From NCBI GenBank assembly GCA_947039455.1, contig CAMQZB010000007.1, forward strand, positions 1-64,000: DNA of 64,000 nucleotides. The letters run 5' to 3'. This document shows positions 1,563-9,188 of the stretch, piece by piece (the stretch's first letter is position 1; the number at the start of each line of letters is the position of its first letter). The translations under genes and the position numbers were made by a program. The DNA comes from an uncultured Clostridia bacterium. GTDB taxonomy: Bacteria; Bacillota; Clostridia; Christensenellales; CAMQZB01. The notes below the pieces were generated by a model. It was not told where the DNA came from, ran no database searches, and saw only the letters and a list, made by a program, of their open reading frames with translations.

Positions 1563-2717
1563 ATGAAAATCCAAGTACATATAAAAAATATAAATAATAA
1601 ATTTAAGAACATATTAAAGTGGAAACCAATGAGCGAATTTCAAATAAAAAATATTAAGGAAATTGATTTAGGCTATGGCAATTTAATCAATCACTTCGCA
1701 TTTGATGGCTGTAGCTACTACTTTACCGTTACTGGCGAGAGTAAAGTCTTGAAAACTGACAAAAATTTCATGGTGCAAGATGTGTATTATACATGTCGAG
1801 AATATGATTGTATATGCTATGATTCGAAAGATTGTTGATTCTATGGAACAGTGAAAAATTGCAATACTAATATATATAAATTAGACAAATGTTTTAAAGA
1901 AGTGGGTTGCATAACACTCCGTAGCTGTAACAATAAATGCCAAACTATTGTTGGAATATCTATTAACTGTGGAAACAACACGATAGTAATCGCATTTAAT
2001 AGTTGCATAGTGGAAGTTAGAAAGAATTGTGGCGAGTGTATGTGTGTTCCAAGTCCTATGAATTGTTATATCACAGGGGTGCTGTGCGTATATCCTGGGT
2101 ATGTGGTGACTTTCTATAAAGACAAGAAATATTACGTTACTATAATCGATCAGTGCGGTCAAATTGTGTTGACTAGTGAAGTGGAAGAAGGGATTATAAT
2201 TCAAGATATGCTGTTTAATCCAATTGACGAAAACAGTAGTCTAAGTTTTATGGATTGTCTAGTTTTACGTAATTTAACGGAGATTTGTGTTACCCACCAA
2301 CCAGTTAGTGACAGTATTATAGGTTACAATATTGCACCATGCAATTTTGATTTGTGTAATAAAAGTTGCTGCAATCCATGTGAAGGCTGTGATTGTTTAG
2401 ACCCATGTGGCAACGTTTTGCAATCTATCGCCCTAATCGAAAGTGCTATAGCTAATATACTAAACTGTGAAGGAGAGAAACTTGACAAGGTAATTGAAGT
2501 ATGCGAAGATGTGGATAAAATTCTTTGTGTCAATAAATCTGTTACTAATACCATAGTAAAGGTTACTCACCTTGAACACGTACTTGTAGCTAAACTTGAA
2601 GCCCTTGAAAACTATTGCAATCTATGCGGAGAAAAATCAAAGTGTGATAACTGTAAATGCCATGATGAAAAAATATGTATTGATGATGATAATACTTGCA
2701 CTTGCAATGTTGACTGA
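1563..2717 (+). pseudogene. Cys-rich, probably surface-located protein interrupted by an in-frame TGA
   Basis: Two open segments, 1563-1838 (91 residues) and 1851-2717, lie in the same reading frame. They are separated only by TGA (1836-1838) and four sense codons (FYGT). The second segment would have to begin at GTG 1851, which has no ribosome site, so the two look like one gene of about 384 codons with a nonsense codon. The protein shows beta-strand-rich repeats (ICYDS-DC, IYKLDKCFKE) like propeller or surface proteins, and more than 30 cysteines after the TGA, including CNKSCCNPCEGCDC. Near residue 190 of the second part it switches to a helical module (SIALIESAIANIL-NCEGEKL, then VNKSV). 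As I recall, this module recurs in clostridial collagen-like and spore-surface-type proteins. The downstream gene carries the same module. Decay, a sequence error or TGA readthrough all fit. Confidence 0.6.
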
Positions 2718-2878
2718 AAGTTTTTCTAAAATTTAATATGTCATTGTATCAATATTTAGTTGTAAAGCATAGAATGTAGAGAGTTGATAAAAAACCAAAC
2801 TAATCAATGATATAATGTCTTATTAAGAAATAAATTTATAGAAAATTTGTTTTATTAAAGTTTAAGGGCGAATTTATT

Positions 2879-3162
2879 ATGTGTACACCAGTAATCACAC
2901 CAGGAACAGGAACTAGATGCCAAGCTATCACAGATATTATCACATCAGTTGCCTTAGAGAAACAGCTTTATCATGCATTTTAAGTGCAGAAGGTCAAAAG
3001 GTTTTAAAAATTGTCGAGCTTGCTCAATCAGCTGAAGATATGCTTGCGGTTAACAAATCAGTTAAGTCTATGGTAGCTACTATCACTAACTTAGAAATCG
3101 TATTAAGTAACAAAATTTCTTTATTCGAAGAATGTTTATGTGCTACATGTGAAGTTGTTTAA
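2879..3162 (+). pseudogene. short paralogue of the upstream C-terminal module, frameshifted
   Basis: ATG 2879 opens a frame (MCTPVITPGTGTRCQAI, then SVALE) that ends at TAA 2981-2983. The frame entered at about 2959 continues ETALSCILSAEGQKVLKI, then AEDMLAVNKSV to TAA at 3162. Joined at GAG/GAA (2957-2961) by one extra base they give a continuous SVALEETALSCILSAEGQK, which matches the SIALIESAIANILNCEGEK module of the preceding gene. A one-base deletion, or a -1 shift in translation, is the simplest reading. Intact, it would be about 94 residues: a short N-terminal tail plus the helical module. A strong terminator follows. An ATG at 2917 opens the second frame, but its first residues do not resemble the family. 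Confidence 0.6.
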
Positions 3163-3984: not shown

Positions 3985-4150
3985 GCGTGTTTTATTGCAT
4001 AATTGCAAAATGAGCCAAATAAATGATAATATACTCCAAAACTTTTAAAATTTTTGAAAATATTTCTTAAAATAGTATTCAAAACTATATGAGAAATTTT
4101 TCATTTATGGTATTATTATATGTAGTATTCAAAAAAATGGAGGTGTGACA

Positions 4151-5593
4151 ATGGATAGCAAATCAAAAGTATCAAAAAACTTTGCTTATTTTAAATTAAA
4201 AAAAGACATCTCAAATTTTGCGAATCTTGCTGAAGAAATTCGAGATGATGAAGATGTGGTAAAATACGTTTTAACCAAAGACCCATCAATGATAAAATAT
4301 ATCAGCGAAAGACTTAAAGACGATTTTGACATAGTTAAACAAGCGGTAAAAACCAAAGGCGACCTAATCAGGTTTGCCAGTGAAAGATTGAAAAACGATG
4401 TGGAAATGGCGAAAATAGCTATTAGTGAGTTTGGCGGATCGTATGAGCATATCGGTGAAAAGCTAAAGGATAACAAAGAATTAATTCTTCTTGCAACTAA
4501 ATCTTTTAGCAGTATTTTGCGTATAATAGATAAGAAATTTTGCGACGATGACGATATAGTTGACAGTGCAATTTTGAAAAATCCAAAAGTAATTGAATTT
4601 GCATCACGCCGTATTCGAAGTGATAAAGATAGGGCGGTTCGATTGATTGATAAAAACCGTATGTTGATTGAATACCTTGACGATAGCATATTTTATCACA
4701 GAGAAGTTTTGGAGAAATTTGTACGCCCTAAAAACAAATTAGTAGCTAATAACGTTATTGATAATCAAACTCCTCTTGGTGTGTTTAAGGGACTTAGAAA
4801 GTTTAATTTTCATGTGTATTTAGTTATGCAACAAATGAATTTGTTGTTGCTATCTCGTGATAAATTCTATAATCTTTTGTTCGTATGTGATAATAATTTT
4901 TCCGATAGAGAAAAACTTTTGCACAAATACGTAGATCTTGATGACGGAGATGTGGTGAAAATGCTTTTAGATAAAGAAATTTTACCTAAAAACAAAACAC
5001 TTATGGAGTTAAGTTTCGCAAGAAATAAACAAAAGCTAAAAGTTTTACCTTATCTATTAGAATATACAAAGGATATGGTAGTAGACCTGTTTAGTGTTCA
5101 AGAAGACAATCGAACTAAGCTTCTAAATGGATTGAAACGGAAATCTAAAATATACATGAGAAAGTTTATTGAAAACTTTGAAATGTTCCAAGATGATGAA
5201 GAAATGGTAGAGCATGCCACATACATGAACGTATCTGCACTTGGCTATGCCGATGAATTAATTAGAAATGACGAAGAATTTGTTGGTAAATTAATAGAGA
5301 ATTACGCAGTAGATTATGCAAGTGAACCGATTATGAAATTCGTTGGAGAGGACTTAGTTTTTAATTATGAGCTATGTCTTTCCTCAGTTGAAAAAGACGG
5401 ACGCAACTTCGCTTATTGTGCGAAATCCGTTCAAGAAATCAAGGAAATAGCACTGGTTGCAGTTCGTGCAAACGGAAGTTATTACTTTAATTTATCCGAG
5501 AAATTAAAAGCTGATGAAGATATTATCAAAGAAAAGAAAGAGTTTTTCCCTATGGATTTACAAAGTGGAAATGAGGACAATGAAAACAATTAA
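4151..5593 (+). CDS. DUF4116-type repeat protein, first gene of a MoxR/VWA operon
   Basis: A 480-residue soluble protein of unknown function. The N-terminal 170 residues consist of helical repeats of about 25-45 residues with the pattern D-E-D-V-V-x-x-V ... I-x-Y-x-S-x-R-L-x-x-D. This resembles the DUF4116 repeat (assigned by pattern only). Similar but more diverged units recur near the C-terminus (DEEFVGKLIENYAVDYAS; DGRNFAYCAKSVQEI). There is no signal peptide or membrane segment. ATG 4151 follows GGAGGTG; the GTG at 4145 lies inside that ribosome site. The stop overlaps the next gene by 14 nt, so translation is coupled to the VWA and MoxR proteins. By analogy with other MoxR/VWA sets it could be the target-recognition or scaffold subunit; that is inference. 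Confidence 0.75.
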   Translation: MDSKSKVSKNFAYFKLKKDISNFANLAEEIRDDEDVVKYVLTKDPSMIKYISERLKDDFDIVKQAVKTKGDLIRFASERLKNDVEMAKIAISEFGGSYEHIGEKLKDNKELILLATKSFSSILRIIDKKFCDDDDIVDSAILKNPKVIEFASRRIRSDKDRAVRLIDKNRMLIEYLDDSIFYHREVLEKFVRPKNKLVANNVIDNQTPLGVFKGLRKFNFHVYLVMQQMNLLLLSRDKFYNLLFVCDNNFSDREKLLHKYVDLDDGDVVKMLLDKEILPKNKTLMELSFARNKQKLKVLPYLLEYTKDMVVDLFSVQEDNRTKLLNGLKRKSKIYMRKFIENFEMFQDDEEMVEHATYMNVSALGYADELIRNDEEFVGKLIENYAVDYASEPIMKFVGEDLVFNYELCLSSVEKDGRNFAYCAKSVQEIKEIALVAVRANGSYYFNLSEKLKADEDIIKEKKEFFPMDLQSGNEDNENN

Positions 5594-7124
5594 CAAGAAT
5601 GAAAAACTGAATAATCTTGCTAAAAAAATCATGTTAACAGCAAGGCGTGATGTGTATTTGAACCTAAAATTTCTAGGTTTAGCTTTGTCGTACCTTGATA
5701 AAATGGAACTTAGCGATAAAGGTGAAACTATGACTATTGCCTGTGATGGCGAAGGTGTTTTTTACAATCCTGAATACGTGGTTTCAAGTTTTGCTAAAGG
5801 AAAAAACCTAGCAAGATCAATTACCCACATCGTTTTGCATTGTATGTATAGCCACCCTTTTAAAGCTCTTGATAAAATTAATAACATAGCATGGGACGTA
5901 GCTTGCGATACTGCTGTTGAAAATATAATTGATGAAATGAAAATGAATGCACTGTATCGTGATGGTGATAGTGAACGTGGCGAAGTATATTTAGAACTGA
6001 AAGATCAAGTTTCCGTTCTTACCGCTGAACAATTATATACTGAATTTGCGGTATTATCTAACGCTGATTTAGAGAAGTATACCAATTTATTTTACGACGA
6101 TTCTCACATCATGTGGGAGCGACTGGAGTTTGATCAAATGGGAAATGGCGAAGACAACAACGGTCTTGACCAAGGCAGTGACAATTTTGCATCATTACAA
6201 TTTGCCCCCCCAAGCAGTGGTGATAGCAGTAAAAGTCACGAAAATTCCGACAGCAGTGAATCTGATGGAACTACTGAAAAAGAGCGTGACGATACTGAAT
6301 TTAAAGACGATGATGGAGAGAGTGACAAAGAGTCCAACGGTGAACCTGAAACTGAAGGTAATTCTTCCAGCAGTAAACGGTCCTCAAAAGCCAAAGACTG
6401 GCAAGACATTTCTTCCGAAATAATGACTGACTTACAATCTTTCAACAACAATTTAGAAGATGGTTTAGGTTATATGTTAAAGACATTGAGAATTGAATGT
6501 TCAAAGAAATATGACTTCAAAGAGTTTATGCGAAAGTTCCTTGTTAATCGAGAAGTGATGAAAGTGGACCAAGAAGAATTTGATTATGTTTACTATACCT
6601 ATGGATTGTCCCAATACGGAAATGTACCGCTAATTGAGAATTTAGAGTATACGGAACAGCAAGTTTTGGAAGAAATAGTTATCGCAATTGACACTTCAGG
6701 GTCTACAGAACAGTGGCTTGTTGAGAAGTTTTTAGAGCAAACTTATTCAATTATAAATCAATCAAACATTGGAAAAAGACAAGTTGCAATCCGAATAATC
6801 CAATGCGACAACGCAATTAAATCGGAAGTAACAATAAAAACATATGACGAATTTAAGGACTATATTGAGAATATATCAATAGTTGGCGGTGGCAGTACCG
6901 ACTTCAATCCTGTATTTAATCGTATAAATAATCAAATTATGAAAAACGAAATAAAACCACCAAAAGGGCTTATTTACTTTACCGATGGCTGTGGAATATA
7001 CCCGAAAGCTGTTCCGAGATATGAAACTACTTTCATATTTTATGAGGACGGACGAACTGATAATAACTATAATGTGCCATACTGGGCAATGAAATTAATA
7101 CTTGGAAAGGAGGACTTGCAATGA
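5580..7124 (+). CDS. VWA domain protein with N-terminal metallopeptidase-like domain (DUF2201-like)
   Basis: 514 residues in three parts. Residues 1-180 resemble the putative metallopeptidase domain of VWA-like proteins; the usual HExxH is HIVLH here (83-87) with SHP after it, so the catalytic Glu is missing. Residues 190-270 are a Ser/Asp/Glu-rich disordered linker. Residues 360-510 are a von Willebrand A domain with an intact metal-ion site: DTSGS (371-375), GGGSTDF (436-442) and FTDG (467-470). Such proteins pair with MoxR AAA+ ATPases as chaperone-like machines. An ATG at 5571 is the alternative start. The gene overlaps both neighbours (5580-5593 and 7121-7124), which suggests fixed stoichiometry. 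It is soluble, with no export signal. Confidence 0.85.
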   Translation: MKTINKNEKLNNLAKKIMLTARRDVYLNLKFLGLALSYLDKMELSDKGETMTIACDGEGVFYNPEYVVSSFAKGKNLARSITHIVLHCMYSHPFKALDKINNIAWDVACDTAVENIIDEMKMNALYRDGDSERGEVYLELKDQVSVLTAEQLYTEFAVLSNADLEKYTNLFYDDSHIMWERLEFDQMGNGEDNNGLDQGSDNFASLQFAPPSSGDSSKSHENSDSSESDGTTEKERDDTEFKDDDGESDKESNGEPETEGNSSSSKRSSKAKDWQDISSEIMTDLQSFNNNLEDGLGYMLKTLRIECSKKYDFKEFMRKFLVNREVMKVDQEEFDYVYYTYGLSQYGNVPLIENLEYTEQQVLEEIVIAIDTSGSTEQWLVEKFLEQTYSIINQSNIGKRQVAIRIIQCDNAIKSEVTIKTYDEFKDYIENISIVGGGSTDFNPVFNRINNQIMKNEIKPPKGLIYFTDGCGIYPKAVPRYETTFIFYEDGRTDNNYNVPYWAMKLILGKEDLQ

Positions 7125-8557
7125 ATATAATCGAAGCAAAAACCGAAATTAAAAACTCAATAGAGATGTACCTACAAAAAAACCAATATGGTGATTACAT
7201 CATTGACGTAGCGCGTCAACGCCCATGTTTTCTACTTGGGGCACCGGGTATTGGAAAGACTGCTATTATGAGTCAAATCGCCGACGAAATGGATTTGCCA
7301 CTTGTGTCATACACAATTACGCATCACACTCGTCAAAGCGCAATTGGGCTTCCTATGATTTCAAAAAAGACTTATAACAACGTTGAAGTTTCAGTAACAG
7401 AATATACTCTAAGCGAAATTATAGCTACGGTATACGAAGAAATGGCTAGATCAGGAAAAGAGGAAGGCATACTTTTTATCGACGAAATAAATTGCGTTTC
7501 CGAAACACTAGCACCTGCAATTTTAGATTTATTACAAAACAAAAAATTCGGACCACACAAAATACCTAAAGGTTGGATATTAGTTACTGCAGGAAATCCT
7601 GTGGAATTTAATAAATCAGTTAAGGAATTTGATATAGTTACCCTTGACCGTGTAAAGAAAATAGTAGCTGAACCAGACTTTAACGTATGGAAAAAATACG
7701 CATACGGAAAGTTGTTTCACGAAGCTGTTATCGGATTTTTAAAACTTAAACCACACTATGTTTTTGCTATGGAAAAAAGCATTGACGGTTACTATTTCGC
7801 AACGCCACGTGGTTGGGAAGACCTTGCAATCGCTATTAATTCATACGAAAATCTTGGTTTTGAAGTTAATTCAAACTTAATAGAAGAATATATTCAGCAC
7901 CATTCAGTAGCTATGGAATTTTATAGATACTACGGTTTGTTTGTGAAATATAAAAGAGATTATGACGTAAATTCAATTATGGCAGGGGATTTTGCGGCCA
8001 AAGTCGAAAAACTTAAATCCGCTAGATTTGACGAACGCTTTGCTATTGCAGAAGTGTTTACATCAGCTATCGGTTCGCAATCAAGAGATATTATGATTGA
8101 AGAGGCTGTGAAAAATTACTTTGTTATTCTAACAAAAAGAATGAAAAACGCTGACTATGAAGAGAAAATAGCAAGAGAGAAAAAGGTTCTATTAAAGAAA
8201 CTAGAAAGCGGATATCTTACTAAAGAAGATAAAGTAAAATGGAAAAAAGTGTTGGAACATATTGAATCAGCTGACTTTGACATGGCTAAGTTGATAGTAG
8301 AATTGTCAATCACACTTGAAACTAAAGCTAAAGAAATCAATAATAACCTTGATAATTTGTTTGACTTCACTATTCAATGTTTCGGCGAAGGTCAAGAACT
8401 AATTGCGTTTATGATAAACCTTATGAGTTCAACTCATTTTGTGAGTTTCGTTACAAAATACAGAAATGACAGATTCTATAAATACAATGAAATGTTAATA
8501 GTGAAAAACAGCAGTGCGGAACTTCAAATGGAAGCTCAAACATTTTTAGATAATTAA
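7121..8557 (+). CDS. MoxR-type AAA+ ATPase
   Basis: 478 residues. Walker A GAPGIGKT (40-47), a substrate-facing insert (HHTRQSAIGLP), Walker B ILFIDE (117-122) followed by INCVSETLAPAILDLLQNKKFG, and a sensor-1 segment (WILVTAGNP). This is the standard arrangement of MoxR/RavA-class ATPases that act with a VWA partner. The C-terminal 200 residues are helical and unassigned. ATG overlaps the stop of the VWA gene (ATGA), a classic coupling signal. It is expected to use ATP to remodel a target complex together with the upstream VWA protein; the target is unknown. Confidence 0.88.
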   Translation: MNIIEAKTEIKNSIEMYLQKNQYGDYIIDVARQRPCFLLGAPGIGKTAIMSQIADEMDLPLVSYTITHHTRQSAIGLPMISKKTYNNVEVSVTEYTLSEIIATVYEEMARSGKEEGILFIDEINCVSETLAPAILDLLQNKKFGPHKIPKGWILVTAGNPVEFNKSVKEFDIVTLDRVKKIVAEPDFNVWKKYAYGKLFHEAVIGFLKLKPHYVFAMEKSIDGYYFATPRGWEDLAIAINSYENLGFEVNSNLIEEYIQHHSVAMEFYRYYGLFVKYKRDYDVNSIMAGDFAAKVEKLKSARFDERFAIAEVFTSAIGSQSRDIMIEEAVKNYFVILTKRMKNADYEEKIAREKKVLLKKLESGYLTKEDKVKWKKVLEHIESADFDMAKLIVELSITLETKAKEINNNLDNLFDFTIQCFGEGQELIAFMINLMSSTHFVSFVTKYRNDRFYKYNEMLIVKNSSAELQMEAQTFLDN

Positions 8558-8567
8558 CAGGTGAAAA

Positions 8568-9071
8568 ATGTCTTATTCTAACACGAGAAAAAAACAACGT
8601 AATGAAAAAAGAAATTTCAAAATGCTCAAAACTGCAATGGAAGATTTCTACCCATATGAAGATTTTGACTGTGATTACGAAAGTTTTCTTGTACCAATGC
8701 CATCTTCATTTTTAGATAAATCAGCTACAGAAAAGAAAGTTAAAACATCATTCATGAGAGCATGGGTAAACAAATCTAAACTTTTCATAGAATGCAAACC
8801 AAAGGAAATAGCGTTTTGCAAAGTCTTTTCCGTTGTAACATACCCAGATTTATCTAGTAGTCAAATTTACATTTTTTACAATAAAGAATCTTACCATAAC
8901 TTTTGGATCGATAAAACAAAAAACAATATCTGGCACGAAATCAAAGATACTTCATTTAATAAACTAAGACACATTACCACACAAAATGAACGGGGCTACT
9001 TTGAAATAGTAGAAACGGATAGTGGTCGTAAATACAAAGAGCAACTGTGGTTTTACGGTGATATAGAATAG
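8568..9071 (+). CDS. small basic protein of unknown function closing the MoxR/VWA operon
   Basis: 167 residues, not recognised. The first 20 residues are strongly basic (RKKQRNEKRNFK) and look disordered or nucleic-acid binding. The rest is rich in aromatic residues (YPYEDFDCDYESF, YHNFWIDKTKNNIWHEI) and looks like a compact beta-rich fold. It starts 10 nt after the MoxR stop with a weak AGGTG site and ends just before a strong bidirectional terminator, so it is part of the same transcript. There are no membrane segments. Confidence 0.7.
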   Translation: MSYSNTRKKQRNEKRNFKMLKTAMEDFYPYEDFDCDYESFLVPMPSSFLDKSATEKKVKTSFMRAWVNKSKLFIECKPKEIAFCKVFSVVTYPDLSSSQIYIFYNKESYHNFWIDKTKNNIWHEIKDTSFNKLRHITTQNERGYFEIVETDSGRKYKEQLWFYGDIE

Positions 9072-9149: not shown

Positions 9150-9188
9150 AAAAAAGGACTGTTTCAAATTAATTGAAACAGTCCTTTT
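9150..9188. terminator. bidirectional intrinsic terminator
   Basis: The near-perfect 14-bp hairpin AAGGACTGTTTCAA / TTGAAACAGTCCTT has an A run on one side and a T run on the other. It can end both the plus-strand MoxR operon and the converging gene at 9231-9974. Confidence 0.9.

Follow-up and report, generated by a model that had tools for sequence, protein, structure and literature searches.

A DUF4116, pseudo-metallopeptidase-VWA and MoxR operon of an uncultured Clostridia bacterium and its relatives with LRR_5 and ankyrin partners

Background

Pairs of a MoxR ATPase and a VWA-domain protein are already known, as are the MoxR-vWA ternary systems and the pair of a MoxR and a metallopeptidase-vWA protein found in jumbo phages. 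In NorQD, rotation of the VWA domain stretches a linker, and contacts of the metal-ion-dependent adhesion site (MIDAS) with acidic residues have been proposed (PMC13036017), while the proposed role of the jumbo-phage pair is in virion assembly with proteolysis (PMC7824862). The ternary systems have so far come mostly from multicellular bacteria and have been described as conflict systems. Here we analyse an operon in a stretch of 64,000 nucleotides from an uncultured Clostridia bacterium (GenBank assembly GCA_947039455.1, contig CAMQZB010000007.1, positions 1 to 64,000 of the forward strand; hereafter the window), which encodes a DUF4116 repeat protein (gene A), a pseudo-metallopeptidase-VWA protein (gene B), a MoxR-like AAA+ ATPase (gene C) and a DUF3916 protein (gene D), and which appears to be a variant, so far undescribed, of the MoxR-VWA 'ternary' systems.

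A three-gene unit and its layout

The conserved unit within this operon is three genes, encoding the repeat protein, the pseudo-metallopeptidase-VWA protein and the MoxR ATPase. In the window they are laid out together with gene D as follows.

4140-4144, + strand: Shine-Dalgarno sequence GGAGG of gene A, 6 nt upstream of the ATG at 4151 (from the sequence)
4151-5593, + strand: gene A, DUF4116 repeat protein, 480 aa (open reading frame (ORF) call; Pfam)
5580-7124, + strand: gene B, DUF2201_N pseudo-metallopeptidase, acidic linker and VWA, 514 aa (Pfam, alignment)
7121-8557, + strand: gene C, MoxR-like AAA+ ATPase, 478 aa (Pfam, alignment)
8568-9071, + strand: gene D, DUF3916 protein, 167 aa (Pfam)
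9152-9188, + strand: predicted terminator hairpin between convergent genes (-21.4 kcal/mol, z -9.2)

The ORF calls matched exactly the four genes of a preliminary description made from the sequence of the window, including the overlaps of 14 nt between A and B and 4 nt between B and C and the gap of 10 nt between C and D. The one shared terminator that it proposed is plausible, since a single strong hairpin stands 3' of gene D. Promoter-like sites within the operon were at chance level (27 against 23.6 +/- 6.1 in shuffled sequences), and this count decides neither for nor against internal promoters. By the searches used, the genes for B and C are each present in a single copy in the genome.

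Repeat partners and their shared C-terminal module

That a repeat protein is the constant companion of the MoxR-VWA pair, as the preliminary description had it, is borne out by neighbouring genes: an LRR_5, ankyrin or DUF4116 profile matched 55 of 263 near neighbours versus 5 of 713 genes at least four places off, a difference of approximately 30-fold, and Pfam confirmed LRR_5 and ankyrin in representative partners. The usual partner is LRR_5 and not DUF4116, which like ankyrin takes its place in other cases. LRR and ankyrin partners have in common a helical C-terminal module of about 110 residues (CT module), with the repeats located N-terminally, and at one locus (L058) a single protein fuses ankyrin repeats, the CT module and LRR_5. 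The module ends in a basic, aromatic, acidic-Leu tail of approximately KKKxF[D/E]L (e.g. KKKxFEL), and the pattern [FY].{0,2}L was present at the C-terminus of 32/73 partners versus 37/1,165 other ORFs. An AlphaFold2 model of an LRR partner (mean predicted local distance difference test score (pLDDT) 93) has a confident helical CT module followed by a low-confidence tail, and a fold search with this model matched BspA-type LRR proteins and returned nothing clear for the CT part.

In 76 of the 89 loci, a repeat protein bearing the CT module was found at most 5 kb from MoxR, on the same strand in 73, and the module was also present in 10/20 loci outside the training of the profile. As the CT profile was partly trained on the 89 loci themselves, a genome-wide search is the fairer test, and for this we used 245 genomes of the class, counting as close those VWA proteins scoring above 300 bits. 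The CT module was present in 12 and a close VWA protein in 13 of these genomes, with 11 common to both. The twelfth CT genome (G516) is a false positive caused by a plain ankyrin array (L226), while the two VWA genomes lacking the module are that of the window, which has DUF4116 instead, and G380, which yielded no partner. Inspection of the regions placed the partner next to the pair or a few genes away in nine of the 11 shared genomes, and in the other two (G357 and G428) the match coordinates put it beside the VWA gene. The ankyrin-gene array of G516, a small genome, is itself interrupted by rplT-like and efp-like genes (L226, 5718-18001).

The partner can be upstream of the pair, between its two genes or downstream, and some loci have none, which would suit a MoxR-VWA pair acting alone with the repeat proteins as unrelated hitchhiking passengers. 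Such a pair is made very improbable by the enrichment of the repeat partners and by the CT module being near-exclusive to genomes with a close VWA protein, at loci where the flanking genes otherwise vary. Of 3,916 locus pairs, only 142 have a flanking gene in common, which also agrees with the variable location of the pair foreseen in the preliminary description. What the analysis establishes is the gene content and the motifs, the recurring linkage, the sharing of the module and the exchange of the repeats.

Genes beside the unit

Pfam assigned gene D to DUF3916 (E 3e-13) and gene A to DUF4116 (E 2e-50, 8 stretches), thus providing the profile-database assignments sought for the repeat protein and for the small protein, to which the preliminary description had given no family name. 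Gene D indeed encodes a basic and aromatic-rich protein, with an isoelectric point of 8.8 and 17% aromatic residues versus a median of 9% for the ORFs of the window. DUF3916 is present in 4/391 genomes of the class and 5/398 of the phylum (the window included), no MoxR or VWA gene was seen near it at the DUF3916 loci inspected (L040, L174-L177), and a search of the related MoxR/VWA loci recognised it at none of them. Since DUF3916 is rare and was beside MoxR/VWA nowhere else among the loci examined, gene D is best seen as a co-transcribed passenger or local accessory outside the conserved unit, and DUF3916 was rejected as a core component on the basis of these genome searches, with its isolated contexts elsewhere. 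The papers found give DUF3916 no function.

The preliminary description had all four genes working as one machine, DUF3916 included, for which the tight spacing and single terminator speak. This is improbable, as DUF3916 is missing from the second DUF4116 locus (L045, see below) and from every other MoxR/VWA locus examined, and occurs on its own in L040 and L174-L177. The proposed survey of the four-gene order gave a divided answer: repeat protein, VWA and MoxR recur together at variable loci, but the small protein does not. Just upstream of the operon, at 1563-3162 of the window, there are three small ORFs, the middle one of which (1851-2717) is very cysteine-rich; as far as seen, these have no relation to the operon.

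The DUF4116 version in other genomes

Locus L045 has the DUF4116-VWA-MoxR order of the window without DUF3916. Over 436 aa, its DUF4116 protein shares 28% identity with that of gene A, and its operon begins approximately 300 bp past an hsdR-like restriction gene. A divergent operon, ordered DUF4116-MoxR-VWA and with a deep-branching pair, was found in another family, represented by five genomes (L159-L163); the MIDAS reads DISGS or DISAS in the three inspected, contrary to an early regular expression that had suggested its absence. In a third family, the genes for DUF4116 and MoxR overlap at the end of a contig (L158), and a second contig of this genome opens with a VWA fragment (L242). DUF4116 adjoins MoxR in 7 of the 29 DUF4116-bearing genomes sampled, a count for which only the best locus was checked in some of the remaining genomes. 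DUF4116-like sequences are also found in the jumbo phages Agrobacterium phage Atu_ph07 and Salicola phage SCTP-2 (H22-H24), at 9 and 16 separate places.

Degenerate metallopeptidase domain and intact MIDAS of gene B

In gene B, Pfam identified an N-terminal DUF2201_N putative metallopeptidase domain (3e-9; 37.3 bits versus a cut-off of 23.2) and a C-terminal DUF2201/VWA domain (1e-10; 42.1 bits versus a cut-off of 26.4), with the following features.

5826-5840, + strand: HIVLH, degenerate HExxH, aa 83-87 (alignment)
6147-6404, + strand: acidic low-complexity linker between the N-terminal domain and VWA, aa ~190-275 (sequence; variable in the alignment)
6690-6704, + strand: MIDAS DTSGS, aa 371-375 (alignment)

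Both the HIVLH without Glu and the intact DTSGS are present as first described. The MIDAS is intact in B (DTSGS from aa 371, FTDG at 467), and D-T-S-x-S was found in 79/80 VWA homologues. The loss of Glu from HExxH is real, but it is not peculiar to gene B, being fixed in the whole of the close clade, where the motif is HxxxHC, found in 69 of 80 proteins with Glu in 0/69. As H83, H87, C88, H92, C109 and D110 are invariant among the 10 homologues aligned and are candidate ligands, the N-terminal domain may have kept a metal site.

An active metalloprotease machine, in which B would cleave clients brought by A and C, could draw on the annotation of DUF2201_N as a putative metallopeptidase, on the invariance of H83, H87, H92 and D110, and on the HExxH retained by divergent DUF2201 proteins of the same class (L029, L030, L159-L163). 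An active zincin has HExxH with its catalytic Glu and B has HIVLH, so that catalysis by the zincin route is unlikely judging from the motif, and proteolysis has presumably been lost. With the general-base Glu missing clade-wide, B was rejected as an active protease, a role to which we give hardly any credence.

The MoxR ATPase and its family

Gene C was assigned to AAA_5/AAA and is MoxR-like (Pfam, 7e-8), with the motifs listed here.

7238-7261, + strand: Walker A GAPGIGKT, aa 40-47 (alignment)
7469-7492, + strand: Walker B ILFIDEIN, aa 117-124 (alignment)
7649-7651, + strand: probable arginine finger R177 in FDIVTLDR (conserved in the alignment)

Walker A, Walker B and the arginine finger are kept in most of the 89 close MoxR homologues, and the operon thus combines a MoxR-type AAA+ protein carrying all three motifs with an adjoining, MIDAS-intact VWA protein. 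This conservation supports the MoxR-VWA remodelling core of the preliminary description.

Close VWA-MoxR pairs were found across the Clostridia; Coriobacteriia, as well as metagenome-assembled genome (MAG) contigs of archaea and Bacteroidota, contributed a few more. In a MoxR tree, made by a quick method and with long branches, the window, L045, L064 and L095 form one starred set (99) within the family. The loci nearest to the window and L045 in this tree, L064 and L095, are close VWA-MoxR loci on Methanomethylophilaceae MAG contigs, for which cross-domain transfer and mis-binned contigs are alternative explanations. No relative was found when viral contigs were scanned with C as a single protein, and a phage origin was rejected, the best matches in phage collections (MT83xxxx) looking bacterial-chromosomal and the real phage homologues being distant. 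The matching human faecal scaffolds labelled 'Bacteriophage sp.' in GenBank (L032-L038; MT837836, MT835935, MT836813, MT838754 and others) look like fragments of bacterial chromosomes, with for example truA, rpsF and ssb adjoining the operon. Other MoxR-VWA operons of Clostridia were seen at L239 (2379-8716), L029 (8180-14145) and L240, two of which have a very large upstream protein (~1,180-1,260 aa) and one of which (L029) has an intact HExxH; operons of this large-protein type are possibly another ternary variant.

Proposed mode of action

An alpha-solenoid fold is predicted for gene A, whose AlphaFold2 model (pLDDT 70) is mostly alpha, and an earlier contact-based model of DUF4116 was likewise an alpha-solenoid (PMC8078820). 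A fold search with our model returned generic alpha-solenoids only, without a match at E <= 0.001, and none of the papers searched assigns a function to DUF4116. Within A we distinguish the following parts.

4247-4690, + strand: N-terminal DUF4116 repeats, three matched units (repeat matching)
4931-5074, + strand: central helices (aa 261-308) that may correspond to the CT module, suggestive only (hhalign, helix register)
5195-5533, + strand: C-terminal DUF4116 repeats, two matched units (repeat matching)

We consider it fairly probable that A, B and C form an ATP-driven remodeller akin to NorQD whose client is recognised by an exchangeable repeat adaptor, here gene A, and we infer formation of an A-B-C complex, tail docking at the MIDAS and remodelling along the following lines. 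The MoxR protein would assemble as an AAA+ ring, onto which B would dock via its C-terminal VWA domain, and the N-terminal metallopeptidase-like domain of B, its catalysis lost and its metal site probably retained, would with the acidic linker form a lever, as in NorD. A would be the recognition subunit, its repeats binding a specific intracellular client and offering it to the metal site of the VWA domain, and ATP hydrolysis by C would twist or pull B and so remodel the client or the A-client complex. In Clostridia the VWA-MoxR engine would stay constant and the recognition part be swapped, with LRR_5 in most cases, ankyrin in some and DUF4116 here. In the LRR and ankyrin versions, the CT module with its disordered tail would be the likely handle for the engine and the tail the natural ligand of the MIDAS. 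Whether these operons constitute an undescribed and widespread MoxR-VWA family of gut Clostridia, with a pseudo-protease engine programmed by exchangeable LRR_5, ankyrin or DUF4116 adaptors, most with docking module and tail, we regard as an even call.

Several findings weigh against the remodeller with exchangeable adaptors. The partner was unrecognised in G380 (L225) and in 13 of the 89 loci, several of which are cut by contig ends, and it is a few genes off in L227, L236 and L237. L045 is the only close DUF4116-VWA-MoxR relative found, and gene A is without the typical C-terminal tail. Residues 261-308 of A aligned weakly with the CT module (hhalign P 0.04 at best, with 0.5 for the reversed control) and have a similar helix register in the AlphaFold2 models, a match that is suggestive at best and not significant, and we do not claim homology. 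Consequently, the contact between A and B in the window must differ from that in the other versions or stays unproven.

The main rival is a conflict or defence system in which the repeat protein would sense an invader and the MoxR-VWA pair act as an ATP-dependent switch, as has been proposed for VMAP and other ternary systems of that kind. It shares the three-part logic of the MoxR-vWA ternary conflict systems (PMC7159879), the recognition domains are exchangeable, and the L045 operon follows an hsdR-like gene. Against this, A, B and C contain no effector domain, no PADLOC family covers them beyond short P-loop matches, the flanking genes are ordinary at most loci examined, and the lone hsdR neighbour is anecdotal, so that we rate a defence switch as unlikely. 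Besides defence, the preliminary description offered stress response and envelope maintenance as conceivable roles.

Comparison with known systems

Searches of the full-text literature, with subscription papers incompletely covered, yielded no account of the clade with repeat adaptors, of the CT module or of the pairing with DUF4116. Searches of genes A to D with Pfam and other libraries found none of the third-component domains of the ternary systems and none of their effector families, and the bpMoxR profile reached 18.3 bits with the window proteins, below its cut-off of 27 bits. RavA-ViaA is also a chaperone-like pair of MoxR and VWA proteins, with kinship at the family level, and is set beside the operon by description only; we know of no repeat adaptor for it.

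The jumbo-phage pair (PHROG 1297/1314; PMC7824862) has the same two-protein architecture, with B matching phrog_1314 (5e-31) and C matching phrog_1297 (2e-42), but in the clade of the window the catalytic Glu is missing and a repeat protein accompanies the pair. At one phage locus (L244; NC_055784.1, gp098-gp099), genes beside MoxR bear the name 'HNH endonuclease', as does phrog_1314; this name is probably wrong, since phrog_1314 matches the metallopeptidase-VWA proteins.

NorQ-NorD and CbbQ-CbbO resemble the operon in combining a MoxR ring with a VWA partner for ATP-driven remodelling, and B is laid out like NorD, with an N-terminal domain, a flexible linker, to which its acidic linker is comparable in place, and a C-terminal VWA domain with MIDAS (PMC13036017). 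In contrast, these systems act on one known enzyme without a separate repeat adaptor, and the N-terminal domain of NorD was not assigned to DUF2201 in our analysis. The MoxR-vWA ternary conflict systems (Kaur et al. 2020; PMC7159879) have MoxR and VWA together with a third component that defines the system, which is VMAP, iSTAND, FtsH or a VWA-fused beta-propeller in theirs and LRR_5, ankyrin or DUF4116 in the operon family, whose VWA protein moreover has a pseudo-metallopeptidase domain and whose hosts are Clostridia.

With the operon family, the MoxR-VWA ternary systems would gain a branch that is centred on Clostridia and has no effectors. The papers searched give no role to the LRR_5 and ankyrin proteins in the cytoplasm of gut Clostridia. 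Tying these proteins along with DUF4116 to one ATP-driven MoxR-VWA engine suggests a testable role for all three, as adaptors handing clients to a remodeller, and both the common tail and the pseudo-protease domain offer concrete mutants to make. If true, gut Clostridia would possess a modular intracellular recognition-and-remodelling system.

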